64,000 nt of DNA from Bacteroidales bacterium (GTDB lineage: Bacteria; Bacteroidota; Bacteroidia; Bacteroidales; GCA-2748055), in contig JARGFP010000024.1 of the NCBI GenBank assembly GCA_029210585.1, positions 1-64,000 of the forward strand, read 5' to 3'. The position numbers and the translations under genes were made by a program. The notes beneath the pieces were generated by a model, which searched no databases, was not told the origin of the DNA, and saw nothing but the letters and a program-made list of their open reading frames with translations. Positions 29,250 to 43,459 of this stretch are shown here, piece by piece. Within the stretch, counting starts at the first letter, position 1. Every line of letters starts with the position of its first letter.

Positions 29250-30275
29250 TCAGGTCCGGGTCGCTGCAATCAACATTTTTGCATTCCTGGCTGCATCAAC
29301 GGTATCAGAGGCAATGACCACCACCTTCTCCTGGTCCCGCCTGTTCAATCCCTTTAAATAGAATTTATCGTAATAGTCGAGGGTAATGACCGCTGCATGG
29401 AAATAATCATTACGCTCAAGCGCTTCCATTGCCTCGGATGTCCGCTTTCCTCCCAGCCGTTTGGAAATCTTCTGTACCGACGCTGCCAGCATCCCTGCAT
29501 CAATTCCTGCATATTCCTCAACCAAAAGGCGGGCACGTACTTCCTCGGGGATGTCAAGAAAATAAACCATAGATTCCCGCATGCGCTGAAACAGTGCTTC
29601 CGGGATAAATACCCTCCCAATGTGGATACTCTCATCTTCAAGCCATACCGGCCGGGTCAAGTCAAGCGACTTCCACTCCCAGAATAACAAATTTGTAAAA
29701 TGCTCATTTTTTGGTTGTTCAGATTGTCCAATTGCACCAAAGGCTGAACCTTTATGATGTGCGATCCCCTCCAGGTCAATGACCTGTTCGCCCCGGAGAC
29801 CAAGTTCCTTCAATACCCTGGTTTTTCCGCTCCCCGTGTATCCACCAAGAACATATATTGTCTCCGGCCGGACAAAAGATTCCAGGGCATGCTGGCGAAA
29901 GGCCTTGTATCCGCCCTCGATCACACATACCTCCTGTAACCCGTTCGCCTCGATATATTCGGCAAAGGATTTGCTCCGCATCCCGCCGCGCCAGCAATAG
30001 ACCGTTACTTTCCCCTTTTCGGCAACTTCTTTTGCACGCCTGACAAAATAATCCAGCTTGGGTTGCACGTATGCGTAACCCAGCTCATAGGCCTTTGCGG
30101 GGGATTGCCTTATGTATGCTGTACCAACCCTGGCGCGCTCCTCGTTGGAGAAGAGCGGAATATTGATGGCTCCTGGCATATGGCCTGTTTCATACTCGGC
30201 CGGTGTGCGTACATCAATGACAGGCAACAGTGGCAATCCCGAAAGGTATTCTTGTATGGAAATTCTCTTTAGCAT
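29250..30275 (-). CDS. selU: tRNA 2-selenouridine synthase
   Basis: The 341-residue protein has an N-terminal rhodanese domain (PVIDVRTPAEYETGHMPGAI; catalytic Cys in VYCWRGGMRSKS, about 94). A C-terminal P-loop domain follows (YVLGGYTGSGKTRVLKELGL), the SelU/MnmH layout. It replaces sulfur by selenium in the wobble 2-thiouridine of certain tRNAs, using selenophosphate via a geranylated intermediate. The ATG chosen has GGGGAGAG about 6 bases upstream; an upstream GTG would add nine residues and overlap the previous gene. It lies 20 bp after the saccharopine-dehydrogenase-like gene, probably co-transcribed. Its presence implies selenium use in this organism. Confidence 0.93.
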   Translation of the reverse strand: MLKRISIQEYLSGLPLLPVIDVRTPAEYETGHMPGAINIPLFSNEERARVGTAYIRQSPAKAYELGYAYVQPKLDYFVRRAKEVAEKGKVTVYCWRGGMRSKSFAEYIEANGLQEVCVIEGGYKAFRQHALESFVRPETIYVLGGYTGSGKTRVLKELGLRGEQVIDLEGIAHHKGSAFGAIGQSEQPKNEHFTNLLFWEWKSLDLTRPVWLEDESIHIGRVFIPEALFQRMRESMVYFLDIPEEVRARLLVEEYAGIDAGMLAASVQKISKRLGGKRTSEAMEALERNDYFHAAVITLDYYDKFYLKGLNRRDQEKVVVIASDTVDAARNAKMLIAATRT

Positions 30276-30295
30276 AATAATCTCTCCCCATTGCT

Positions 30296-31429
30296 TCAGC
30301 ACTTGCTCACCCTGTACAACACCCCTCTTGCTGCAAGGTAGTCCATCAAATGATGAAAATCAGCTTCATTTCCGCCAATCACCTCCGGGGCGAGAACGCC
30401 TTTGGCAGTAACCCGGTTTTTGAGTACCAGGTCGGCAGTACCTGCACAGGTAAAGCCCGTAGTCCGCGACATGGACAGGGTGTCAGTGCGTGCATCATAC
30501 CGGTCATACAGATCATACTGGTACGTTACCGGCAGGCCCGCCTCCTTACCTGTGATCGTCACCCGCATGACAGTAAATTCCGCTTCACCTTGATCCAGTT
30601 TCCACAATGGAAATAATAGTTTAGCTGTTAAATCAATAGGCCTTACCAATTCACCTCCTACTTCAATCTTTTCATATGAAAAATAGCCCAGTTCTCTGAG
30701 GGCCTTTATATAATTAATTGTTCCCGGGTAGCGCAGGGTTTTCTCCACCATGTCCGGAATGTGTAGCATGGTCACAAGGAGCGACCTGAGTCCGTCAGAG
30801 TTCCACTCCTCCAGGGTTCCCGCTTCATCGAATTCCACGAGAGCAGCCTCTGAAAGTGCAGGAAGTGTGATGATCTTTCCATTACGGACCAACCGGGCAG
30901 GACGTGTATATTCCTCGATGCAATCGATGGGTGACCAGGAAGATTTATATTCCAGCGGCCAGGTGCGTTTCACAGGCAAACCTCCCACGATACATTTGTA
31001 GCTTTCCACCTCCATTTTCCGGTCGTGAAATCCCAATATCGCATTGCACATTCCGGGAGCCACACCCATATCGGCCACTACAGTCACCCCGTTCTCCTTT
31101 GCAAGCCTGTCGAGCTGCAAATAGTCTTCCGGACAGAAGGAGATATCCACCATGTTTTTCCCGAGCCTGATTACCTGCTCCATCAACTGATACCCCACTG
31201 CCCCGGGAGCGGCTCCAACCACCAGGTCTTTGTCCTCAACAAGTTCACGCAGCACATCAGCCTGCATGAAATCTGCCTTGCGCGTGCGGATGCCTTTCAT
31301 GGATTCGATCTTTTTCAACGCTGCAGGATCCAGGTCTGCGGACACCACATCATAGCCTGCCAGGTGCAGGTCGGCCGCAATGGCACTCCCGACCAATCCG
31401 GCACCAAGTACAATAATTTTCCCGGGCAT
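30296..31429 (-). CDS. Saccharopine-dehydrogenase-family NADP-dependent oxidoreductase
   Basis: The 377-residue protein begins KIIVLGAGLVGSAIAADLHL, a Rossmann motif. VADMGVAPGMCNAILGFHDR and GLPVKRTWPLEYKSSWSPID are saccharopine-dehydrogenase-type signatures, as found in lysine metabolism and in carboxynorspermidine-type reductive condensations. It probably catalyses NAD(P)H-dependent formation or cleavage of a secondary amine between an amino acid and a keto acid or aldehyde. A GTG nine codons earlier is an alternative start; the ATG directly before the nucleotide-binding strand is preferred. No LysA-type partner is adjacent, though a LysA-fold decarboxylase is encoded 5 kb away. Confidence 0.85.
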   Translation of the reverse strand: MPGKIIVLGAGLVGSAIAADLHLAGYDVVSADLDPAALKKIESMKGIRTRKADFMQADVLRELVEDKDLVVGAAPGAVGYQLMEQVIRLGKNMVDISFCPEDYLQLDRLAKENGVTVVADMGVAPGMCNAILGFHDRKMEVESYKCIVGGLPVKRTWPLEYKSSWSPIDCIEEYTRPARLVRNGKIITLPALSEAALVEFDEAGTLEEWNSDGLRSLLVTMLHIPDMVEKTLRYPGTINYIKALRELGYFSYEKIEVGGELVRPIDLTAKLLFPLWKLDQGEAEFTVMRVTITGKEAGLPVTYQYDLYDRYDARTDTLSMSRTTGFTCAGTADLVLKNRVTAKGVLAPEVIGGNEADFHHLMDYLAARGVLYRVSKC

Positions 31430-31540
31430 TTGTTTTTTCTTTGTTATTTGTGTCACTAAGAAAACGTACAGTATACAACTGCAGCTGATAAGAACCAGGG
31501 ACCAACGATCACGTTTGTATAGAAAAGTCGTGTGACAGCC

Positions 31541-32428
31541 TCATTTCTTTTTCCGAACCGCCTGAATCATCCTGGTGATATGTTCCGGGGTGGTGCCGCA
31601 GCAACCGCCCACAATATCTGCACCTGCATCAATGAGTTCGCCGATCTGTGCCGACATCTGATCTGGTGTTTCAGGGAACACTGATTTTCCCTCTCGCAGG
31701 ACGGGCATTCCTGCATTGGCATGCACCAGTACCGGTATCTGGCTGTTGGCTTCCCTGATCTGTTTCACGATCTCGATCATTCCTGCGGTCCCGTTCCCGC
31801 AATTGGCCCCCAGTACATCTGCGCCTTCCTGCACCAGCATTTCCACCGTCTCAGCAGGAGTGGTACCCATCATGGTCCTGTATTCTCCGGCAGGGGTCAG
31901 ATTGAAGGTAAACGTACAGAGCACTTCCCTGTCAGTTATGGATTTGGCTGCCCTGATCGCGGTACGGGCCTCATCCATATCAGACATGGTTTCGACCAGT
32001 ATGGCATTTGCACCGCCATCCACAAGGCCCCTGATCTGTTCCGCAAAACCCTCAAATAATTCCTGCTCGGTTACCTCACCCATCATCAGGATTTTCCCTG
32101 TAGGTCCGACCGAACCCAGGACCAGGACATCCTCACCGGCAGCACGTCGTGATATTTCTGCAGCAGCCTTGTTCACTTCGTACGTCTTCCCTTTCAGTCC
32201 GTATGGCTCCAGTTTGAAGGGACTGCCGCCGAAGCTGTTGGTCAGGATCATATCTGCACCGGCATTCACATAGCTCAGAGCAACATCATAAATATCATCG
32301 GGCCTGGTAAGGTTCCATGATTCCGGGCACTCATCGGATCGCAATCCTTTCTGATGAATAAATGTACCCCATGCTCCGTCGGAAACAAGCGTTCCTTTTT
32401 CTTTCAGTTTTTCACTGATGGTTGTCAT
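31541..32428 (-). CDS. Homocysteine S-methyltransferase family protein (MetH module 1-like)
   Basis: The 295-residue protein is a single methyltransferase barrel. The zinc-thiolate cysteines are visible in LGANCGNGTAG and VGGCCGTTPEHI, and the opening GAWGTFIHQKGLRSDECPES is typical. In MetH this module moves a methyl group from methylcobalamin to homocysteine. Here it is a stand-alone protein whose start overlaps the stop of the corrinoid protein gene by 4 bp, so the pair rebuilds the first and third modules of MetH without the folate and activation modules. The methyl donor and acceptor are not clear; it could be a catabolic methyltransferase. Confidence 0.9.
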   Translation of the reverse strand: MTTISEKLKEKGTLVSDGAWGTFIHQKGLRSDECPESWNLTRPDDIYDVALSYVNAGADMILTNSFGGSPFKLEPYGLKGKTYEVNKAAAEISRRAAGEDVLVLGSVGPTGKILMMGEVTEQELFEGFAEQIRGLVDGGANAILVETMSDMDEARTAIRAAKSITDREVLCTFTFNLTPAGEYRTMMGTTPAETVEMLVQEGADVLGANCGNGTAGMIEIVKQIREANSQIPVLVHANAGMPVLREGKSVFPETPDQMSAQIGELIDAGADIVGGCCGTTPEHITRMIQAVRKKK

Positions 32429-33114
32429 GTCGGGTGCGTTGATGAAATGAGTGAATTCAAATATTCAGCAGCTTCCTGCGGGCGCAATGAAAAGAAATCA
32501 GCGCCGATCTTGTCACAGTACTCCTGGGTAACAGGTGCTCCGCCAATCAATATTTTTTTATCGGGATATTTCTCCCTGATACTTTGTACGATCTGTTCCA
32601 TGTGCACCATGGTGGTTGTGATCAGCGCAGAAAGTCCTACATGTGCTTTGGGATGTTCCTCGATTGCCTTTATAAAGCCTTCAGCAGATACGTCTGTACC
32701 CAGGTCGACAACCTCCCAGCCGGAGCCTTCGATGATTGCTTTCACCAGGTTCTTCCCGATATCGTGCAGGTCACCCTGCACTGTTCCGATAATAAACGTA
32801 CCCTTACGCTCCACGGCACCCGATTCGAAATAGGGCTTGAGCAGCACGATTGCCTCATTCATCGCGCGGGCTGCCAGCAGCAGGTGGGGTACAAAGGCCT
32901 TGCCCTCCCCGTACAAATCCCCAATTCGCTTCATCCCGGGGATCAGGGCACCATTCAGTATCTCCTCCGGGGCCACATCCATCTCAATCAGCTGTGCCGT
33001 AATCTCCCGCGCGCCCTCCTGGTCCTTCATTTCAGGAGGCGTTGGAGTAGCCTTATCGGCCTTTCCTTTTTCAACACAAACAGAGAGATGGGCCAGAAGT
33101 TCGTTTTTTTGCAT
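32425..33114 (-). CDS. Corrinoid (B12-binding) methyltransferase partner protein
   Basis: The 229-residue protein has the helical cap domain of methyl-corrinoid proteins (about 30-100, NGALIPGMKRIGDLYGEG). A B12-binding Rossmann domain follows, with the base-off ligand motif GDLHDIGKNLV (DxHxxG) and GLSALITTTM. It carries the methyl group on cobalt between two methyltransferases. The paired homocysteine-type methyltransferase follows with a 4-bp overlap. The gene starts downstream of a five-copy heptamer repeat. A reductive activase or second methyltransferase is not seen nearby. The N-terminal 30 residues, which include KATPTPPEMKDQEG, look like a linker. Confidence 0.9.
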   Translation of the reverse strand: MQKNELLAHLSVCVEKGKADKATPTPPEMKDQEGAREITAQLIEMDVAPEEILNGALIPGMKRIGDLYGEGKAFVPHLLLAARAMNEAIVLLKPYFESGAVERKGTFIIGTVQGDLHDIGKNLVKAIIEGSGWEVVDLGTDVSAEGFIKAIEEHPKAHVGLSALITTTMVHMEQIVQSIREKYPDKKILIGGAPVTQEYCDKIGADFFSLRPQEAAEYLNSLISSTHPT

Positions 33115-33191: not shown

Positions 33192-33374
33192 AGAAAGCTC
33201 TGTTGGCAGGGGCAATGAGAAGGGCTTACATCAGGCGCAAGCAGGAAAACTATTGTGGGAGAGCAATTGATCCTGACCAGGTGGTTCTCGGTACAGGAAA
33301 AATCGCTGCAAATGAAAGCAGTAACTACATGTATCGAAATTCTTACTAAATTTAAAGGTTCTACTGGTGGAAAA

Positions 33375-33965
33375 ATGGCAGCCCGGGATGGTCACATAAC
33401 AGAAACGATCCATATCAGGAACATGGTCTGCAACTGTTGCAAGCAGTTTCTGAAAGAGAAGCTTAAGGATACCGGCATCATCGTGCATGAGATATCCCTG
33501 GGGAGGGAGAGAATCACCTATGATACGACGGTCTGTTCCCATGAAACGATCGATCGGGTACTGCACAATTATGGATTCGGACTGTTGGAGAATAAAGAGG
33601 ACCGCCTGGTTTCAGAGATCAAGATTGCCGTGATCGAATTGATCCATCACCTGAACAACGTCAATTCCATCGTCAGGAAATCCGATTACCTGGTGGAAAA
33701 GCTGGGGTTCAGCTATCCTTACCTCTCCAGGTTATTCTCCGAACACGAACATACCACGCTGGAAAAATATATCATTCACCAGAAGATTGAACGCATCAAG
33801 CACTTAATCGACGAGGAAGAGTACTCGCTGAGTGAGATTGCCTACATGATGGATTATTCCAGCGTACAGTACCTCTCTAACCAGTTCAGGAAAATTACCG
33901 GTGTTACAGTTTCCCAGTACAAAGCCGGCGCCGAGATAGAAAAAAAAGGCATTGATGAATTATAA
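33375..33965 (+). CDS. AraC-type regulator fused to a heavy-metal-associated (HMA-like) N-terminal domain
   Basis: The 196-residue protein starts with a ferredoxin-like metal-binding domain (ETIHIRNMVCNCCKQFLKEK; CNCC near residues 18-21). A linker helix and a C-terminal AraC double helix-turn-helix follow, with RLFSEHEHTTLEKYIIHQKI and LSEIAYMMDYSSVQYLSNQF. Proteins of this layout are probable metal-sensing activators in Bacteroidetes. The longest frame starts 40 codons upstream, but the ATG chosen begins just before the domain. No copper or heavy-metal P-type ATPase is adjacent; its target may be the downstream PqqD/ATP-grasp cluster or the methyltransferase pair. Metal identity is unknown. 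Confidence 0.82.
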   Translation: MAARDGHITETIHIRNMVCNCCKQFLKEKLKDTGIIVHEISLGRERITYDTTVCSHETIDRVLHNYGFGLLENKEDRLVSEIKIAVIELIHHLNNVNSIVRKSDYLVEKLGFSYPYLSRLFSEHEHTTLEKYIIHQKIERIKHLIDEEEYSLSEIAYMMDYSSVQYLSNQFRKITGVTVSQYKAGAEIEKKGIDEL

Positions 33966-34139: not shown

Positions 34140-34394
34140 ATGAAACTACGCGAAAATATTGCAGTCAGCGAGTCCGGGTTCCTCTTCGACCCCAATTCCG
34201 GGGAGTCTTTTTCCGTCAACGCATCGGGCAAGGAGATCCTCAGGTTACTGGCGAAAGGAAAGTCCCTCGCCGAGATCGAAACCACCATTCTTTCCGATTA
34301 TAATATTGATGAAAAGTCCTTCAACAGGTACATGGACGATTTCTTGCACACCCTTCGCAGGTTCAACCTCATTGAAGCAGCAACAGATGAGTAA
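34140..34394 (+). CDS. PqqD-like small protein (RiPP-recognition-element fold)
   Basis: The 84-residue protein reads ENIAVSESGFLFDPNSGESF, then NASGKEILRLLAKGKSLAEI and ends FLHTLRRFNLIEA. This is the winged-helix PqqD family pattern, a fold that binds leader peptides of ribosomally made peptides (RRE) or acts as a carrier-partner domain. It is stand-alone and begins a cluster whose next gene, an ATP-grasp protein, starts before its stop codon (8-bp overlap). This suggests the two work together. No obvious short precursor peptide follows, although the small T9SS protein two genes on is a candidate partner. The family is likely; the pathway is unknown. Confidence 0.78.
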   Translation: MKLRENIAVSESGFLFDPNSGESFSVNASGKEILRLLAKGKSLAEIETTILSDYNIDEKSFNRYMDDFLHTLRRFNLIEAATDE

Positions 34395-35433
34395 ACGAAA
34401 AATCACCATCGCAATCACAGGTCTGAACAACACCGACAATCCGGGACCCGGCATACCGGTGGTACGGGGAATCCGTGAATCGGACAGGTTTGATGTACGG
34501 ATCATCGGGCTCGCCTATGAAAACATGGAACCGGGCATTTACATGGAAGGCGCGCTGGACAAAACCTACCTGATCCCCTACCCGTCGGTCGGCATCGATC
34601 CATTCATGAACCGGATCCTGGAGATTCACGGGAAAGATCCGGTTGACCTGATCATCCCCAACCTGGATGCGGAACTCTTTACCTTCATGAAAGCGGAAGC
34701 GTTGCTCAGGAAGCACAACATCAGCACATATCTTCCCACCCTTGAGCAGTTTGAAGAAAGACAGAAGGGAAACCTGAACAGTTTCGGCGAAAAATACTGA
34801 ATCGATGTACCGCACAGCAAATCGATCACTTCGGTGAACGACATTCCGGAGTTGCGGGAAGAATTTGAATATCCTCTGCTTGTAAAAGGAAAATTCTACG
34901 ATGCATACATTGCATATAATCCGGATCAGGTCAACAACCATTTCAACAAGATCATTGCAAAATGGGGGCTCCCCGTGATCATCCAGGAATTTATACGCGG
35001 GACGGAGGTGAATGTGGTGGCCCTGGGTGACGGGACCGGTGAGACGATTGCTGCCGTTCCCATGCGCAAGCAGTATATCACCGACAAGGGAAAAGCATGG
35101 AGCGGCATTACCCTGGGCGACAAGAAATTGCTGCAGATTACGCGTGACCTTTTCAGGCAGAATAAATGGAAGGGTGGAATGGAACTGGAGATGATCAAAA
35201 CCAACCAGGGAACATATTACCTGATCGAGATCAACCCCCGGATCCCGGCATGGGTCTACCTGGCAGTGGGTGCCGGTCAGAATATCCCTGAGGCACTTGT
35301 CCGCCTTGCCATGGGTGAGAAGGTGGAGCCGATGACAGCCTACGAGGTGGGAAAAATGTTCATCAGATACTCGTACGACCTGATAGGGAATATCAGTGAT
35401 TTTGAAAAACTTTCAATCAGCGGAGAACTATAA
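34387..35433 (+). pseudogene. ATP-grasp ligase interrupted by an in-frame TGA
   Basis: Read through, this is a 348-residue ATP-grasp protein of the carbamoyl-phosphate-synthase-like type. The N-terminal part (KRKITIAITGLNNTDNPGPG, VDLIIPNLDAELFTFMKAEA) is followed after the stop by EYPLLVKGKFYDAYIAY, VIIQEFIRGTEVNVVALGDG and the metal-binding YYLIEINPRIPAWVYL. The TGA lies at 34798-34800 between GEKY and IDVPHSK and keeps the same frame, so a single substitution (for example from GGA) explains it. The two fragments separately lack either the ATP-binding or the N-terminal half. Ligases of this fold join carboxylates to amines or thiols. Its start overlaps the PqqD-like gene. Confidence 0.82.
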
Positions 35434-35443
35434 ACCCAACAAG

Positions 35444-36228
35444 ATGAAGACCACAATTATTGCATTCGTAACCCTGGCGGCCAGCGTGGCGCTGAATGCA
35501 CAGTTCACACACGAACAACCTATAATTTTTCAGGTACCCTTGCTGAGATCGATTCAGGTGAGTTCAAGTATTTTGTAATGGATGTGCCCATGAAACAATG
35601 CCGCATCTTTAATGAAGACCACATACTCTACAAAACCATCAACCTGGCAGTACCGGAAGGATTTTTCCTCTATGACATCAAATTTGTCAGCCGTAAAACA
35701 TTCAACACCAACGAGGACATTGAACTGCTGTACATTTATTATAAATCCACTCTTGTCAACTCAGAATATGTAAATACATACGGACTAAAGGTGGTAAATG
35801 AAAACGGCAATGTTCTGCTCAACCTGCAGGACGGGGGCTTTGCTGAGATCAAGGAGCTCAAAGGTGCACCCAAACTTTTTGCTTACCAGTATATTTACTA
35901 CGACTACTATTACCTGCTGTACACCAATGTATATGCGATCGGGGGAAGCACTTCAAAAAGTGCCACTCTCAAATCCCCCGGCTCACTTCATATTTATCCC
36001 AACCCTGCCGGAGACATGATGCAGGTGGAAATAAGTCCCGAAAACCTCATACAAGGCGGACAGGTCATTGTCAGCGATCTTTCGGGAAAAAAGCTCCTTG
36101 AACAGCCCTATGAACCTGGAATAACTGAAATCCCCGTTGCCACCGGACAGCTCGGTTCAGGAACATATATCCTGAATGTTATATCGGCAGACGGAACCAG
36201 TGCAGCCGGGAAAATCGCAAAAAACTAA
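35444..36228 (+). pseudogene. Small T9SS-exported protein, frameshifted after the signal peptide
   Basis: The first frame gives a signal peptide (KTTIIAFVTLAASVALNAQF) and then loses sense. A second frame, open from before 35521, gives TYNFSGTLAEIDSGEFKYFV running into MDVPMKQCRIFNEDHILYK and on to a T9SS tail (LHIYPNPAGDMMQ). One missing base (or two extra) in the CA-rich stretch near 35503-35520 reconciles the frames, for a product of about 260 residues. The middle is beta-rich with a Tyr cluster (YIYYDYYYLLYTN). No known enzyme domain is visible. It sits between the ATP-grasp and decarboxylase genes, so it may be the substrate or a surface partner of the cluster. Confidence 0.8.
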
Positions 36229-36232
36229 TCTG

Positions 36233-37594
36233 ATGATGGATAAACCAAAATTCGACAGACCGGTGATCAACCGGATCAATGCAGGAGTGCCGGACAAATT
36301 CGGTATGCGGACCAATATCAGGCCCATCACAACGATAGATAATGTCAGTATCAATAGGTTGCTGAAGGAATATGGCTCCCCCCTGTACGTGCTCTCCGAA
36401 CAGACCATCAGGGATACCTACCGTGAAGCCGAATCGGCCTTCAAGACCAGGTATCCTAAGGTACAGTTCGCCTGGTCGTACAAAACCAATTATATGAATG
36501 CGGTCTGCAGGGTTTTTCACCAGGAGGACGCTTGGGCCGAGGTGGTTTCGGGATTTGAGTACGAAAAAGCGATCGCCAACGGCGTACCAGGCAACAAGAT
36601 CATTTTCAACGGTCCGGACAAATCCCGCTCCGACCTGGAACTGGGGATCAAAAACGGCTCGCTGATCCATATCGACCATTTTGATGAATTATATGAGATC
36701 ATTGATATCGTGGACGACAGCGAAGAAATAGCAAAGGTAGCGATCAGGATCAACATGGATACCGGGATTTATCCGCAGTGGGACCGCTTTGGTTTCAATT
36801 TCGAAAATGGTGAGGCATGGGCAGCAGTGAACAAGATCATGACACAGGAGCACCTGGAGCTGATGGGATTGCATACCCACATCGGAACCTACATCATGAC
36901 ACCCGTATCATATGGCATTGCCACAAGGAAAATGGCTGAGCTTGCTGTCAGGATCGACCGGAAATTTGATCATGTAATCAAATATATCGATGTGGGTGGT
37001 GGTTTTGCTTCCAAAAACACCCTGAAAGGTGCCTATCTGCCGGGATCTGATACCTGTCCGTCCTTTGATGAATATGCAGAAGCCATTACCGATGCACTGA
37101 ACAACTCCGATATCAGGCACGACCGCATGCCTACACTCTTCCTGGAAACAGGCCGGGCCCTGATCGATGATGCTGGGTACCTTGCAGGAACTGTGCTGGC
37201 CAACAAGCGGCTGGCCGACGGCAGGCGGTCCCTGGTGATCGATATCGGCGTCAACATGTTGTTTACCTCCTTCTGGTATGAACACAACATCGTACCGGCA
37301 CAGGAACACCAGCAGGATACAGAGGATACCACGATCTACAGACCGCTTTGCATGAACATCGACGTGATCAGGAGTGCAGTACAGTTCCCGTAACTTGAAA
37401 AAGGCGACCAGGTGGTGATCAACCGGATCGGGGCGTACAATATGACGCAATGGCTGCAGTTTATAACGTACAGACCCAGGGTGGTGATGATCAGTACGGA
37501 GGGCGTGCCGCATGTCATCAGGGAGAACGAAAACTACGAAACCATGAACATGCTGGAGCGGCTCCCCGAACACCTGGAGGACCTCAAATTCTGA
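36233..37594 (+). pseudogene. LysA/ornithine-decarboxylase-fold PLP enzyme interrupted by an in-frame TAA
   Basis: The read-through product (453 residues) is a type III PLP enzyme. PLP-lysine is in FAWSYKTNYMNAVC (normally YALKAN), with GLHTHIGTYIMTP, the glycine loop IDVGGGFAS and LETGRALIDDAGYLAG. The closing CMNIDVIRSAV resembles the CxxxD motif with Cys and Asp. TAA at 37391-37393 precedes LEKGDQVVINRIGAYN, the C-terminal barrel strand that closes the active site, in the same frame. Such enzymes decarboxylate diaminopimelate, ornithine, arginine or carboxynorspermidine. Two ATGs in tandem lie 4 bp after the T9SS gene. It is the third consecutive damaged gene of the cluster. The truncated protein lacks the dimer-forming C-terminus. 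Confidence 0.82.
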
Positions 37595-37600
37595 TAACAG

Positions 37601-39814
37601 ATGCTGAAGCAGTCACTGACAATCAAAAAGGAGGATGCAAGGTATTTTGTGCATAGCATCATACACAGCTATTCACAGGTATTTTTCTCCACCCATAAGC
37701 CTTTTGCCATCCTGCTGATGCTCGTTACCTTCTACGACATCTATGCAGGACTTGCCGGCTTGATGGCAGTAGTAACCACCTCTGTGGCTGCATTTATTCT
37801 CAACCTGCACAAACCCACTACTGCAGAAGGTTATTACGGATTCAACAGCCTGCTTGTGGGGCTCGGACTCGGGATTTATTACAGTTTTGGCTGGCACCTG
37901 GTACTGATCATTTTCCTTGCGGCACTGTTCACTTTCTTTATCTCTGTATCACTGCAGGGTGTAATCGGAAAATACAAGCTCCCCTACCTGAGCATCCCTT
38001 TTATACTGGCACTCTGGACATTCATCACGGCCACACGAAGCTTCGACGCGCTGGGTATCAGTGAGCGCGGAATCTATACACTCAATGAATTGTACCAGGT
38101 AGGCGGAGACCGGCTCATTGCAGTCCACGAATTCTTTAATTCAATCCCTTTACCGAAAGTAATCAGCACCTACTTTATCTCCCTGAGCGCCATACTTTTC
38201 CAGTACAGCGTACTCACAGGTATCGCGATTGCGCTGGGGCTGCTGCTGTACAGCCGGATCGCATTTTCATTGTCACTGATCGGTTTTTTCGTTGCCTATC
38301 TCTTCTATAACCTGATCGGTGCCAATATCACCCAGATCGATTACAGCTATATCGGCTTCAATTACATCCTCACTTCCATTGCCCTGGGAGGCTTTTTCCT
38401 GATCCCTTCCATACGTTCCTACCTCTGGGTAATTGTCCTGATCCCACTGGTGGCAGTACTCACCATTAGCCTGAATACCATTTTCCTTGAACTGAAACTT
38501 CCCATCTATGCACTCCCGTTCAACATGGTGGTATTGTTGTTCATCTATGTGCTGAAATTCCGTTCGGAATACTCCTACCGCCTCACCGAAGTATATTACC
38601 AGTACAACTCACCGGAAAAAAACCTGTACACCTTCCTGAATAACACGGAACGATTCAGGTTCAAGCAGTTCACACAGGTCAAACTTCCGTTTTTCGGTAC
38701 CTGGGATATCGCACAGGGACATAATGGCGCCCATACGCACAAAGACCAGTGGAGACATGCCTGGGATTTTGTCATCCTCAACAAGGAAGGAAAACAATAC
38801 AGGAATGACGGGGATTTCCCTGAAGATTACTTTTGTTTCGGCAAACCGGTCATCACCCCGGAAGAAGGTGTGGTGGAAAAGGTGGTGAATGATATCGACG
38901 ACAATATCATCGGCGAGGTAAACCTGCAGCAGAACTGGGGAAATACCATCATCATTAAACACGATGACGAGTTGTACTCCAAGTTGAGTCATCTCAAAAA
39001 AGGCAGTATCAAGGTGGAAGAGGGTGAGAAAGTCCGGTTCGGACAGGTGATCGCTCAGTGCGGAAATTCAGGACGATCCCCCTATCCGCACCTGCACTTC
39101 CAGGTCCAGGAATTTCCGTATATCGGATCAGCAACGAAAGACTATCCCATCAGCAGCTACGTCCTCCACGAGGAAAATAAATTCAGCTTTCACACCCACA
39201 AGAAGCCCCGCGAAAATGACAAGGTGTCCAATATCTAAGCAAATGAATTGCTTGTCCAGGCTTTCAGGTTCACCCCCGGGGAGGTGTTGCATTTCAACGT
39301 GGAAGGTTTCAGAAACATCCAGGATGTGAAATGGGAAGTGAGGGTGAATCCATACAACGAAACCTATATTGAATGCAACAGGTCGGGGGCCATTGCCTAT
39401 TTCGACCAGGATGAAAACCAGTTCCATTTTACCTATTTCGAAGGAACCAGGAACTGCCTGCTCTATTATTTCTTCCTTGGTGCATACAAGGTGCAGGAAG
39501 GGTTTTACCAGGACCTGGAGCTGGAAGACCACTACCCGCTGTCCCTGGTCTTCCCAAAACCGATACTGTGGTTCCATGATTTCATCAGTCCGTTCGTACG
39601 GTTTGCAAGTTCAGATTACAGGATGAAATATGTGAATATTGATGATTACATGTCCCCTTCAGAAATCAGGCTGGAATCTTCCCTTAAAAACAGGCTGGGT
39701 AAGAAAGAACTCAACAAGATGGATTTTGACATCATGATCAACCGGTCGGGAATCGCTCATCTATCGATCAACGATCATGGTCAGCAGATACAGATGAAAA
39801 GATGCGAAGAATAG
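37601..39814 (+). pseudogene. Urea-transporter / M23 peptidase fusion, interrupted by an in-frame TAA
   Basis: The N-terminal part (about 1-330) is a urea-transporter-type membrane domain with ten or so helices and GYYGFNSLLVGLGLGIYY as the pore motif. A cytoplasmic or periplasmic M23/LysM-type endopeptidase domain follows (about 360-510): HTHKDQWRHAWDF and PYPHLHFQVQEF carry the zinc His/Asp pattern. TAA at 39236-39238 ends this part. The frame stays open for another 191 residues (NELLVQAFRFTPGEVLHFNV and onward), which have no recognised domain. It follows the decarboxylase by 6 bp. The fusion couples solute transport to peptidoglycan or related amide cleavage in one protein. Whether the stop is real, suppressed or an error is undecided. 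Confidence 0.75.
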
Positions 39815-41229
39815 TTTTTATATGGATGCTGGCGGGTGCTGTGATGATGACCAGGCATGTGCCGGTTTTCGGGCAGGAACCGGACTTAAAGCAGGATCCG
39901 GCTTCGCGGCAGGAACAGATCTTCGGACAGGAACCAGCCCCAGGACAGAAACCTACATTCAGACAGGTGGATTCGATCACCTATCAGCTGTATCTTGAAG
40001 AAGCATGGCAGGACCTGGTCCGGGAGGGAAAGGCTGCCCTTGAAAACGGATTCGACTATTATTATTTGCAAATGCGGATTGCCTATGCATATTACGCGTT
40101 GGGCAAATACCGCCGCGCCGCGCAATACTACAAAAATGCGCTCGGTCACAACAGCCGTGATCTGATCGCCAACGAATACCTTTATTATGCCTACAAATTC
40201 GGCGGGCGCAGTCATGATGCCCTCCGGCAGACCAGGGCCCTTTCTGCAACCCAGAAATCAGCTATGAATATCAACGATTCCATCAGCTTTATTGCATTCG
40301 GTCTGAATTACGCATGGGCCGGGGCAAACACGGCTGCCATTCAGGATAACATTGTAAGCAATACGGACCTGCTGAACCCCGGCACGCAAAAGGCAACCCG
40401 CGCCATGCATTATGCCGGGGCAACTTTTTCACACCGCCTGGGTACCGCCCTGGTCCTTTCTCACCAGGGCAGCTATTTATACAAGAATGAATTATCCTAT
40501 GTAATCACGAATAACAGGGCATTCCTTTCCGAAGAACAGCCGGTGCAGCAATACGAATACAGCCTGGATGCAGATATTCTGGTTGCTGAAGGACTGGTGA
40601 TCCGCCCGGGCATCCATTACCTGAATACCGCGATCCCGCTCTATGCTGAAACATCCTATGGACAGGGTTCCGGCATCAATAGCACCGCAGTCAGTAAACT
40701 CACAATCATTGACTGGGTGCAGAAACTCCAGGTAGCATACCAGTCATGTTATGCAGATGTGGGCTTGTCATGGGTACACCATAATTTCAACGACATCAAT
40801 ACACACCAGGCAGGATTCCATGGTACCTTCTATCCCATGGCCAATCTTAACCTGTACCTGGGTTTGGATGCGTACATGCAGTTGGCCACTTTCAATAATG
40901 AACAATCGGTAAATCTACTCTTCAGACCTTTGCTGGGAGGTAAGATATTCAACAACCTTTGGCTCGAAGTCGCCGGGGCACCCATGGAACAGTTCAACTT
41001 TTATGATATACGGAACAAATTTGCCTTCAACAACCTCGAAAAGATCGCGTGGAGTATGGAGGCCAATGCAATCGTTCCCGTTTACCGGGCGGGGATGCAA
41101 TTGTTCTTCGGTTACAGGTTCAGGTCGGTCAACAGCATGTTCTTCCCCACACAGGACCTGCTGCACCCGTTCAATCAACAGAATTATCAGAGTCACATAA
41201 TAACAGGAGGAATCATATGGAAATGTTAA
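39802..41229 (+). CDS. YaiO-type outer-membrane beta-barrel protein with TPR-like N-terminus
   Basis: The 475-residue protein has a signal peptide (to about G24), a low-complexity Gln-rich hexapeptide repeat, a helical TPR-like segment (about 60-150, MRIAYAYYALGKYRRAAQYY) and a C-terminal beta-barrel (about 165-475) that ends on a hydrophobic/Cys residue. This resembles YaiO-family outer-membrane proteins. It overlaps the end of the UT-M23 gene by 13 bp and ends inside the TPR gene that follows, so the three are one operon. It may assemble or export the product of the cluster. Family assignment is moderately sure, function unknown. Confidence 0.75.
   Translation: MRRIVFIWMLAGAVMMTRHVPVFGQEPDLKQDPASRQEQIFGQEPAPGQKPTFRQVDSITYQLYLEEAWQDLVREGKAALENGFDYYYLQMRIAYAYYALGKYRRAAQYYKNALGHNSRDLIANEYLYYAYKFGGRSHDALRQTRALSATQKSAMNINDSISFIAFGLNYAWAGANTAAIQDNIVSNTDLLNPGTQKATRAMHYAGATFSHRLGTALVLSHQGSYLYKNELSYVITNNRAFLSEEQPVQQYEYSLDADILVAEGLVIRPGIHYLNTAIPLYAETSYGQGSGINSTAVSKLTIIDWVQKLQVAYQSCYADVGLSWVHHNFNDINTHQAGFHGTFYPMANLNLYLGLDAYMQLATFNNEQSVNLLFRPLLGGKIFNNLWLEVAGAPMEQFNFYDIRNKFAFNNLEKIAWSMEANAIVPVYRAGMQLFFGYRFRSVNSMFFPTQDLLHPFNQQNYQSHIITGGIIWKC
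39874..39966 (+). repeat. Six-copy hexapeptide/18-bp imperfect repeat in the YaiO-type gene
   Basis: Directly after the signal peptide, Gln recurs at residues 25, 31, 37, 43, 49 and 55, exactly every sixth residue (GQEPDL, KQDPAS, RQEQIF, GQEPAP, GQKPTF, RQVDSI). The DNA repeats in 18-bp units with drift. It looks like a flexible linker that expanded by tandem duplication. Confidence 0.75.
41205..41210 (+). promoter_or_regulatory. Strong Shine-Dalgarno AGGAGG for the TPR gene
   Basis: AGGAGG sits six bases before the ATG of the TPR gene, inside the coding end of the barrel gene. A perfect Shine-Dalgarno is uncommon in Bacteroidetes. It probably raises expression of the TPR protein independently of coupling to the upstream gene. 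Confidence 0.6.
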
Positions 41230-41843
41230 AAAAATTCATTTTCGGAATGGTACTTATGGCAATAGCAATGGCCGCTTTTACACAGAGTGCGGCGTACAGC
41301 AAAACCGTCAAAGCCTTCCAGGACAGTTACCTGAACGAGGCCACGGGTGACCTGCAAGCTGCCACCCAGGTCCTGAAGGAGGTATATGATGAGGATGGGT
41401 ATGAAGTCAACCTTCGTCTTGGATGGCTTACCTATTCCGCCGGTCAGTTTACAGAATCATACAGTTATTATAACCGGGCGGTTGAACTCAAGCCCTTCGC
41501 CATTGAACCGCGGTTCGGGCTGATCTACCCCACTGCTGCAATGGGCAACTGGGACATGGTGATCTGGCAATACGAGAAGATCATAGAGATCGCCCCGGGC
41601 AACACCATCGCCATCCACAGGCTGGGACTGGTATACTACGGACAGAAAGATTACCCGGCAGCTGAAAAATTATTTGACAAGGTGGTGAACCTGTACCCCT
41701 TCGATTATGATGCACTGCTGATGCTGGCATGGACCAAGCTGCAACTGAAAAAATTCCGTGAGGCCAAGGTATTGTTCAACAAGGCACTGATGCACACGCC
41801 CGGTGGTCAGTCGGCCCTCGAAGGACTCGAACTCCTCGAATAA
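41217..41843 (+). CDS. Periplasmic TPR-repeat protein
   Basis: The 208-residue protein has a signal peptide (EMLKKFIFGMVLMAIAMAAF) and four to five TPR-type helical hairpins. VNLRLGWLTYSAGQFTESYS, PRFGLIYPTAAMGNWDMVIW, AIHRLGLVYYGQKDYPAAEK and ALLMLAWTKLQLKKFREAKV are successive repeats. TPR proteins hold complexes together; here it probably scaffolds the YaiO-type barrel and the UT-M23 protein. It is the last gene of the cluster and shares sequence with the end of the barrel gene. A long frame starting further upstream is not used; the ATG with the AGGAGG is clear. Confidence 0.85.
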   Translation: MEMLKKFIFGMVLMAIAMAAFTQSAAYSKTVKAFQDSYLNEATGDLQAATQVLKEVYDEDGYEVNLRLGWLTYSAGQFTESYSYYNRAVELKPFAIEPRFGLIYPTAAMGNWDMVIWQYEKIIEIAPGNTIAIHRLGLVYYGQKDYPAAEKLFDKVVNLYPFDYDALLMLAWTKLQLKKFREAKVLFNKALMHTPGGQSALEGLELLE

Positions 41844-41995: not shown

Positions 41996-43459
41996 TTAAA
42001 GGCTCTCTCCAAAATCCAGCCTGAACTTTGCCATCAGCTTTTCAGGCCAGTCAGATACAGCATCCAGCCGTCCCATGAAAAACCTTAACACTTCTGGTTC
42101 ATCCACGAATTTAAGTCCGCCCACAAGTTCCCTGTTCTGGTAGAGCCAGTGCAGCCTGTCAATGACAAACATGGTCTGTGAAAGCGTGAAAACCCTTCGC
42201 GGAAATGCAAGCCTCAGCAATTCCACATCTGCAAGAATATCGTTGCCGTCTTCGTCGCGAACACTGGAGATGGTTCCGCGCTCCATTCCCCGGCAGCCCG
42301 AAATGATGAACAGGGCTGCAGCAAGGGCTCCCGCCGGATATTCTTCCTGCGGCACATGTGGCAGGAAGCCCATAGCATCAATATGACACCCCAGCGCCCC
42401 GGCCGGAGTTACCACCGGAATGCCGATCTTTTCCAGTTCCCGTACAGCATATTCGATAAAAGAAGGTGACTGGCTGATCACGGTTTCATCCAATGTCTCG
42501 ATCATTCCTACAGCCATGGCTTCTATCTCCCGTACCGACATCCCTCCATAGGTGGTGAATCCTTCATAGAGGGGAACCAGGTCACGCATTTTCAGGTACA
42601 ACTCCTCGCTGTTGGTGCAAATTCCCCCTCCACGGGTCGAGCTGACCTTCCTGCTGGAGAAATAGACGATTTCAGCCATCCCACACATTTCGTGCAGGAT
42701 CTCCTTGATGGATGCATCCTTGTATTCCGGCTCCCTTTTCTTGATAAAATAGGCATTTTCACCTATCAGGCTCGCGTCCAGAACAATCATGATCCCATGC
42801 TGATCGGCAATGGAACGGACTTCCCTCATATTGGCCATTGAAAACGGCTGTCCGCCGATAAGATTCGTGGAAGCCTCAAACCGAATGAACGGAATATGAC
42901 CGGGTCCATATTTATCGATCACCTCCACCAGCTGCCTGGTATCAATATTGCCCTTGAAGGGATGGTCACTTTTGATCTTTAATCCTTCGTCCGTATAGAT
43001 TTCAAGAATTGTTCCCCCGTTCAGCTCCATGTGTGCCTTTGTAGTGGTAAAATGATAGTTCATCGGGATAACATCTCCCTCGCTGATGAAAGTCATGGAA
43101 ATCACATTTTCTGCTGCTCGTCCCTGGTGTACCGGGAGCACATAATGCTTCCCAAATACCTCTCGCAGGGCACGCTCCATACGATAGTAACTCTGTGAAC
43201 CGGCATAGGCATCATCGGCCTGCAGCATGGAAGCTACCTGGTTATCGCTCATGGCATTTGTTCCGCTGTCCGTCAGCATATCCAGGAAAATATCGTTTGT
43301 GTTGAGCAGAAACGTATTGAATCCTCCTTCCCTGACGGCCTTCAGCCGCTCTTCCACAGGCTTCAGGTGTAGTTTTTGTACGATTCTGACCTTGTGCAAT
43401 TCGATGGGAATCTGCTCCCCGTTGATGAATTTGATGATAGGTGTCGTAGTGGCACTCAT
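41996..43459 (-). CDS. tnaA: Tryptophanase / tyrosine phenol-lyase-type beta-eliminating lyase
   Basis: The 487-residue protein is a full-length fold-type I PLP lyase. YVLPVHQGRAAENVI, DASLIGENAYFIKK and the PLP-lysine region VYFSSRKVSSTRGGGIC (Lys in SSRK) align with tryptophanases, although the usual SGKKD or SAKKD is replaced by SSRKV. The GAYAGSQSYYRME-type active-site Tyr segment is present as DDAYAGSQSYYRME. It makes indole, pyruvate and ammonia from tryptophan, or phenol from tyrosine. The Bacteroidetes subfamily keeps the same motif, so activity is probable. Promoter and terminator are both recognisable, so it is monocistronic. Confidence 0.9.
   Translation of the reverse strand: MSATTTPIIKFINGEQIPIELHKVRIVQKLHLKPVEERLKAVREGGFNTFLLNTNDIFLDMLTDSGTNAMSDNQVASMLQADDAYAGSQSYYRMERALREVFGKHYVLPVHQGRAAENVISMTFISEGDVIPMNYHFTTTKAHMELNGGTILEIYTDEGLKIKSDHPFKGNIDTRQLVEVIDKYGPGHIPFIRFEASTNLIGGQPFSMANMREVRSIADQHGIMIVLDASLIGENAYFIKKREPEYKDASIKEILHEMCGMAEIVYFSSRKVSSTRGGGICTNSEELYLKMRDLVPLYEGFTTYGGMSVREIEAMAVGMIETLDETVISQSPSFIEYAVRELEKIGIPVVTPAGALGCHIDAMGFLPHVPQEEYPAGALAAALFIISGCRGMERGTISSVRDEDGNDILADVELLRLAFPRRVFTLSQTMFVIDRLHWLYQNRELVGGLKFVDEPEVLRFFMGRLDAVSDWPEKLMAKFRLDFGESL

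Follow-up and report, generated by a model that had tools for sequence, protein, structure and literature searches.

A conserved operon that joins a PqqD-like protein, an ATP-grasp ligase, a pyridoxal phosphate (PLP)-dependent decarboxylase, a urea transporter (UT)-M23 peptidase fusion, a TPR/probable barrel protein and a TPR protein is present in intact form across Bacteroidota. A decayed copy lies at 34,140–41,843 in the DNA analyzed here, a 64,000-nucleotide stretch from a Bacteroidales bacterium (contig JARGFP010000024.1, positions 1 to 64,000; source assembly GCA_029210585.1, 4.6 Mb and 99% complete), which is referred to as the window. An earlier note on this DNA had proposed an undescribed pathway combining ligation, decarboxylation and envelope transport. 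The synteny recurs intact in many Bacteroidota, literature searches for the gene set found no paper describing it, and the operon is real, widespread and apparently undescribed. Our tentative reading, favored here over its alternatives, is that the intact operon makes a small amide or N-acylated amine and carries it across the cell envelope.

A genome scan yielded 80 named loci, three from Neomarinimicrobiota, and nearly every locus of sufficient length carries the order PqqD, ATP-grasp, decarboxylase, UT-M23, TPR/barrel, TPR. The loci span cultured Algoriphagus, Cyclobacterium, Rhodonellum and Mariniradius as well as metagenome-assembled genomes (MAGs) of Bacteroidales, Balneolaceae, Rhodothermaceae and Neomarinimicrobiota; in some, pqqD had not been called as an open reading frame (ORF), and tblastn located it upstream. 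The last three genes overlap or almost overlap, and the TPR gene closes the operon in 65 of the 80 loci, always overlapping the gene before it. Within a class-wide sample of 395 genomes, the ATP-grasp occurs in 76, all of which (76/76) also contain UT-M23. The two genes lie on the same strand, separated by 1.38–2.52 kb, in 71 of these 76 genomes, and the decarboxylase fills the gap in the loci that were read out; in the five exceptions they are on different contigs. Twenty further loci, most of them from outside the class, nearly all share the same core, some with a different barrel-like protein of ∼280 residues after the TPR gene. The gene order is real and far beyond chance, and the recurrent intact synteny in other Bacteroidetes that the earlier note had set as its test was found wherever contigs allow. 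A protein sorted by the type IX secretion system (T9SS), which had been counted as part of the set, is present in only 6 of the 80 loci and is accessory.

The best evidence for the role of the operon is that two unrelated enzyme pairs accompany one transport module. UT-M23 occurs without an ATP-grasp match in 10 class genomes, of which G307 holds a first-form operon at a contig edge with a decarboxylase fragment and G209 is an incomplete genome of a first-form genus. In the other eight, which represent three genera only, the UT-M23, TPR-barrel and TPR genes point away from, or lie at a contig end that matches, a trio encoding a VOC-like protein (labeled by eye; no Pfam match), a 913-residue fold-I OKR decarboxylase and a PRK06524-type ATP-grasp. 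PqqD is absent from this second form. The PRK06524-type ATP-grasp is present in 31 of the 395 genomes: 8 of the 10 above and 23 of the remaining 385. It is absent from all 76 genomes with the first form; genus g32 holds both operon forms, in different species. In the UT-M23 tree the second-form sequences group as a single clade (support 1.0) inside the first form, and the enzyme module was therefore probably replaced once. Because non-homologous decarboxylase and ATP-grasp pairs serve one transport module, a decarboxylase plus a ligase appears to be the constant chemistry. The second-form decarboxylase is homologous over its full length (785 bits) to PDB entries 9n0n and 9n0o, which have been identified as Rv2531c of M. 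tuberculosis, an orphan enzyme (PMC12910592). An Rv2531c-like decarboxylase and a PRK06524 ATP-grasp, often with a VOC-like protein, also constitute a conserved set in many Bacteroidota (L178:2951-7783 and L218-L235).

The window operon consists of seven adjoining plus-strand genes, as had been proposed, with overlaps or gaps of ∼13 bp or less when the lesions are read through. Four of the seven are interrupted, by three in-frame stops and one frameshift, which the earlier note did not mention. The first gene (34140..34394) encodes a PqqD-like protein of 84 amino acids (PF05402, 37.7 bits against a cut-off of 23.4; TIGR04353, 41.2 against 35). The ATP-grasp ligase gene (34387..35433, 348 codons; ATPgrasp_Ter and carbamoyl-phosphate-synthase-like profiles) contains an in-frame TGA at 34798 (codon 138), and the accessory gene for a secreted protein with a T9SS C-terminal sorting domain (35444..36228; Por_Secre_tail, 4.1e-7) is frameshifted near 35515. 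The fold-type III, LysA-fold PLP decarboxylase gene (36236..37594, 452 codons; Orn_Arg_deC_N, 1.6e-29) is broken by a TAA at 37391. In the gene for the fusion of UT, M23 peptidase and a C-terminal beta domain (37601..39814, 737 codons; UT, 2.9e-61; PF03253, 207.7 bits; Peptidase_M23, 4.4e-16), a TAA at 39236 leaves a first open frame of 545 amino acids. Its homologs have a single open frame of ∼730 amino acids with a conserved C-terminal domain that is missing from the 545-residue frame, so the window UT-M23 has a further domain of ∼190 residues beyond the stop. The last two frames are intact and encode a signal-peptide protein with an N-terminal TPR region (weak TPR match) and a probable outer-membrane barrel (39802..41229), and an exported TPR protein of 208 amino acids (41217..41843; TPR_2, 1.5e-16). 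Of the family assignments made earlier, PqqD, ATP-grasp, Por_Secre_tail, Orn/DAP (diaminopimelate) decarboxylase, UT with M23, and TPR are confirmed; YaiO is not, since no YaiO profile matched any of 30 homologs of the barrel gene, which gave TPR matches alone in Pfam and NCBIfam. A signal-peptide TPR protein with a probable barrel is the safer description.

Intact counterparts of the broken genes are found in close relatives. The ATP-grasp is free of internal stops in the 75 other class genomes with a match and has no lesion in L153 and L154, two loci of the same genus; the decarboxylase, too, is intact in relatives. Homologs of the T9SS gene are intact at the same position in L076/L153 and L091/L154 and lie elsewhere in other loci. 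Two same-genus genomes, G395 and G396, contain every gene of the operon up to the ends of their contigs, including the T9SS gene at the same place; a third, G397 (99% complete), lacks both the decarboxylase and UT-M23. The window proteins are 83–85% (ATP-grasp) and 83–84% (decarboxylase) identical to the intact same-genus proteins, which are 81% and 83% identical to each other. Inactivation appears recent because the window proteins resemble the intact ones as closely as those resemble one another. In a test for decay by the ratio of nonsynonymous to synonymous substitution (dN/dS), synonymous sites were saturated and the window proteins were conserved like the intact ones, and therefore nothing beyond "recent" can be said. 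We conclude that the window copy is probably a recent pseudogene cluster and, being broken, has probably stopped yielding the product.

Alternatively, for the window copy only, the stops could be assembly errors, or the split ATP-grasp could still function as two chains. The high amino acid identity to intact relatives would fit either, the break sits in a loop of the ATP-grasp model, and an Algoriphagus MAG (L037) shares the TGA at the same ATP-grasp codon. We nevertheless regard this as unlikely: four separate lesions fall in four adjoining genes while the surrounding genes are uninterrupted ORFs, the ATP-grasp has no stop in the 75 other class genomes, and stops that read TGA, TAA and TAA imply no single recoded codon. 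Stop-codon recoding was rejected on the last two of these grounds, and apparent stops in L155 and in family-level decarboxylase matches were attributed to over-extended ends. The L037 lesion (L037:7979-7981) corresponds to window 34798-34800, lies in an operon that is otherwise intact, and in both loci falls at a variable loop residue and leaves a second ORF of 199 amino acids; by a rough estimate, the chance that the shared stop is a coincidence is ∼1%. Two other loci also have interrupted genes. In L244 (G455, a single-contig genome), UT-M23 is divided between two ORFs, and genes of 471 and 1363 amino acids are inserted before the barrel gene; this operon is possibly another decaying copy. 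In a Neomarinimicrobiota MAG (L046:380-1724) the ATP-grasp is frameshifted, which reflects either one more independent loss or an artifact of assembly.

The two first-form enzymes point to the class of substrate. Against solved structures, the decarboxylase profile is nearest to N-citrylornithine decarboxylase (7kh2, 260 bits), followed by the best DAP decarboxylase (190 bits), BtrK (128 bits) and lysine/ornithine decarboxylase (64 bits). The truncated window frame scores 181.7 bits with the curated LysA model (cut-off 297.9), and the window protein scores 161 with FslC (cut-off 500). Pocket residues T327, Y331, M355 and Y383 of the N-citrylornithine enzyme FigC are kept, and T330, H357 and R387 are replaced by W, I and Q, which are invariant in 22 homologs; H357 and R387 contact citrate in FigC. 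The acidic residue and the Arg that serve for DAP or ornithine are absent: CMNID replaces CESxD beside the catalytic Cys, and the specificity helix reads T-S-F-W-Y, with no Arg. Because the first four FigC residues are kept and the other three replaced, the sequence suggests that the substrate is an acylated or otherwise modified amino acid whose far end is neutral. The FigC structure paper argues that members of this decarboxylase clade other than the DAP decarboxylases serve specialized metabolites and not polyamines (PMC7857480). A plain polyamine, one of the products suggested earlier, is less likely for the first form because the nearest group, comprising the N-citrylornithine, DAP and BtrK enzymes, is set apart from the polyamine enzymes (PMC7857480). 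The ligase residues of the ATP-grasp are invariant across homologs, and its model (predicted local distance difference test (pLDDT) score 89.8) resembles, among others, 2pn1, biotin carboxylases, L-amino-acid ligases (RizA, 3vot) and PylC. Both first-form and second-form ATP-grasps match the MfnD profile weakly.

In the AlphaFold model of UT-M23 (pLDDT 88.7), a complete urea-channel fold is followed by a LytM/M23 domain and then by a beta-rich C-terminal domain that has no Pfam match. Foldseek matched the UT part to 3k3g and UT-B and the M23 part to LytM and peptidoglycan endopeptidases. Like dvUT and UT-B, the UT part has the full 10-helix fold; unlike them, it is fused to the M23 and C-terminal beta domains. 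Of the polar ladder that binds urea in dvUT (dvUT numbering), Gln24 is kept, Thr130 and Thr294 are Ser, and Glu187 is Ala. H375, D384, H459, H492 and H494 of the M23 domain are invariant in 43 homologs. The domain shares its fold and the invariant His and Asp with LytM/M23 endopeptidases such as DipM and ShyA, from which it differs in the spacing from the first His to the Asp (9 here, 4 there) and in being channel-fused and predicted to be cytoplasmic. UT-M23 has no signal peptide and no extra helix. Because the number of UT helices is even, placing both termini on the same side, and both ends are basic, the M23 domain is probably cytoplasmic.

Under the reading that we favor, the ATP-grasp, aided by the PqqD-like protein, would form an amide bond between an amino acid and a second building block, and the PLP decarboxylase would then strip the carboxylate of the amino acid to give an N-acylated amine. 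The M23 domain may trim the product, UT-M23 would move it, or an M23-cut piece, through the inner membrane by way of the urea-channel fold, and the TPR/barrel pair would take it across the outer membrane. In the second form, the unrelated decarboxylase would probably act on the free amino acid, with ligation by the other ATP-grasp following. The gene set and its order, distribution, conserved active-site residues, folds, lesions and second form are observations; the order of the reactions, the direction of transport and the class of product are what we infer. Rhizoferrin biosynthesis (FslA/FslC, FigA/FigC) provides a close precedent: there, a ligase couples an amino acid through an amide, after which a decarboxylase of fold type III, clade 2, takes off the carboxylate. 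Another route to rhizoferrin proceeds via the free diamine (PMC7857480). These two routes, ligation then decarboxylation and decarboxylation then ligation, parallel the two operon forms. In contrast to rhizoferrin pathways, where the ligase is an NRPS-independent siderophore (NIS) synthetase, the operon has an ATP-grasp, PqqD, an unrelated transport module and different citrate-contacting residues. Butirosin BtrJ/BtrK likewise couples an ATP-grasp ligase to a fold-III decarboxylase whose substrate is an attached amino acid, but it requires a carrier protein, none of which was found here, and the similarity to BtrK is limited to the score given above. Methanofuran MfnA/MfnD also pairs an amino-acid decarboxylase with an ATP-grasp amine ligase, but from another decarboxylase family and with no transport module.

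Several points weigh against this reading. In G026 the enzyme and transport modules are truly apart, on different contigs. The OKR/PRK06524 pair also occurs without UT-M23, usually beside genes for γ-aminobutyrate (GABA) transaminase, nitrilase, C45 hydrolase and aldehyde or semialdehyde dehydrogenase, and these catabolic-looking neighbors make import or degradation possible. Urea-like selectivity of the channel may not be upheld, because the Glu187 of dvUT is Ala in UT-M23. M23 enzymes normally cut peptidoglycan in the periplasm, and a cytoplasmic placement is unusual. The more specific proposal, that UT-M23 belongs to a new envelope-spanning exporter, widespread in Bacteroidota, in which a UT fold and a cytoplasmic M23 domain release and export the ATP-grasp/decarboxylase amide and whose enzyme module can be swapped for a non-homologous one, is possible but doubtful.

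Of the other functions considered, biosynthesis and export of a siderophore-like metallophore would explain why the decarboxylase is nearest to a rhizoferrin enzyme. AraC-type regulators, several with Cys-rich N-termini resembling heavy-metal-associated (HMA) domains, lie within ∼2.5 kb upstream in 17 of the 52 loci with enough upstream DNA, and RND pumps and DUF2202 adjoin some loci. However, the residues with which FigC binds citrate are not conserved, the operon has neither a siderophore synthetase nor a constant TonB receptor, and several of the regulators lack the cysteines; we consider a metallophore decidedly unlikely. The window regulator (33255..33965, +; HTH_18, 2.6e-15; HTH_AraC), whose gene ends 175 bp upstream of the operon, has the motif IRNMVCNCC in an HMA-like N-terminus. 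Several others share an MVCxCC-like N-terminus; the HMA profile matched weakly (E 0.0096) in one homolog.

Alternatively, a diamine or amino-acid amide might be attached to or trimmed from peptidoglycan, with a periplasmic M23 domain cutting stem peptides and the TPR/barrel proteins acting at the outer membrane. Diamine-decorated peptidoglycan is known in Selenomonas and Veillonella, the fold of the M23 domain resembles that of peptidoglycan endopeptidases and LytM factors, and the envelope-protein genes overlap downstream. A periplasmic M23 domain is difficult to reconcile with a UT-M23 that lacks both a signal peptide and an extra helix and whose two termini, the N-terminal one basic, face the same side, and the gene set includes no Mur-type or lipid-II enzyme. 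Such an envelope modification seems slightly less probable still.

A ribosomal-peptide pathway, in which PqqD binds a leader peptide, the ATP-grasp and decarboxylase modify the core, M23 cuts and UT exports, is in keeping with the PqqD family match and with a single operon uniting modifying enzymes, a protease and a transporter. However, a search of the 700 bp preceding pqqD and following the TPR gene found no conserved short ORF, the gaps within the operon are too small to hold one, and the second form dispenses with PqqD. We regard a ribosomal-peptide pathway as very improbable, and a peptide-like product, as the earlier note had suggested, is not supported. Short ORFs around the operon were discarded as antisense noise of pqqD and the regulator, and a survey of graspetides gave no link to PqqD, M23 or the decarboxylase. 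Finally, the operon might take up and degrade an amino-acid amide or a peptide, the UT letting through urea or a small amide. This agrees with the UT fold and with the GABA transaminase, nitrilase and dehydrogenase beside second-form enzymes elsewhere, but is about as improbable, as an ATP-consuming ligase would be odd in breakdown and such catabolic genes do not recur beside the first form.

By eye, the minus-strand genes upstream of the regulator in the window (29250-33114) seem to encode a selenouridine synthase, a saccharopine-dehydrogenase-like protein, a homocysteine methyltransferase and a corrinoid protein, all as uninterrupted ORFs, and the next gene downstream of the operon (41996-43459, −) resembles tryptophanase/tyrosine phenol-lyase. 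A second PqqD with a stronger match (66 bits) is encoded elsewhere in the source genome (G000:C30:54435-54635, L001).

About one fifth of the sampled class genomes (76–86 of 395) carry the operon, including the cultured genera named above. Establishing its product would assign a function to the urea-channel fusion and link many environmental Bacteroidota, a large group, to a metabolite. The swapped enzyme module, and the conserved Rv2531c-like/PRK06524 set to which it corresponds, also offer a clue to Rv2531c, the orphan decarboxylase of M. tuberculosis.

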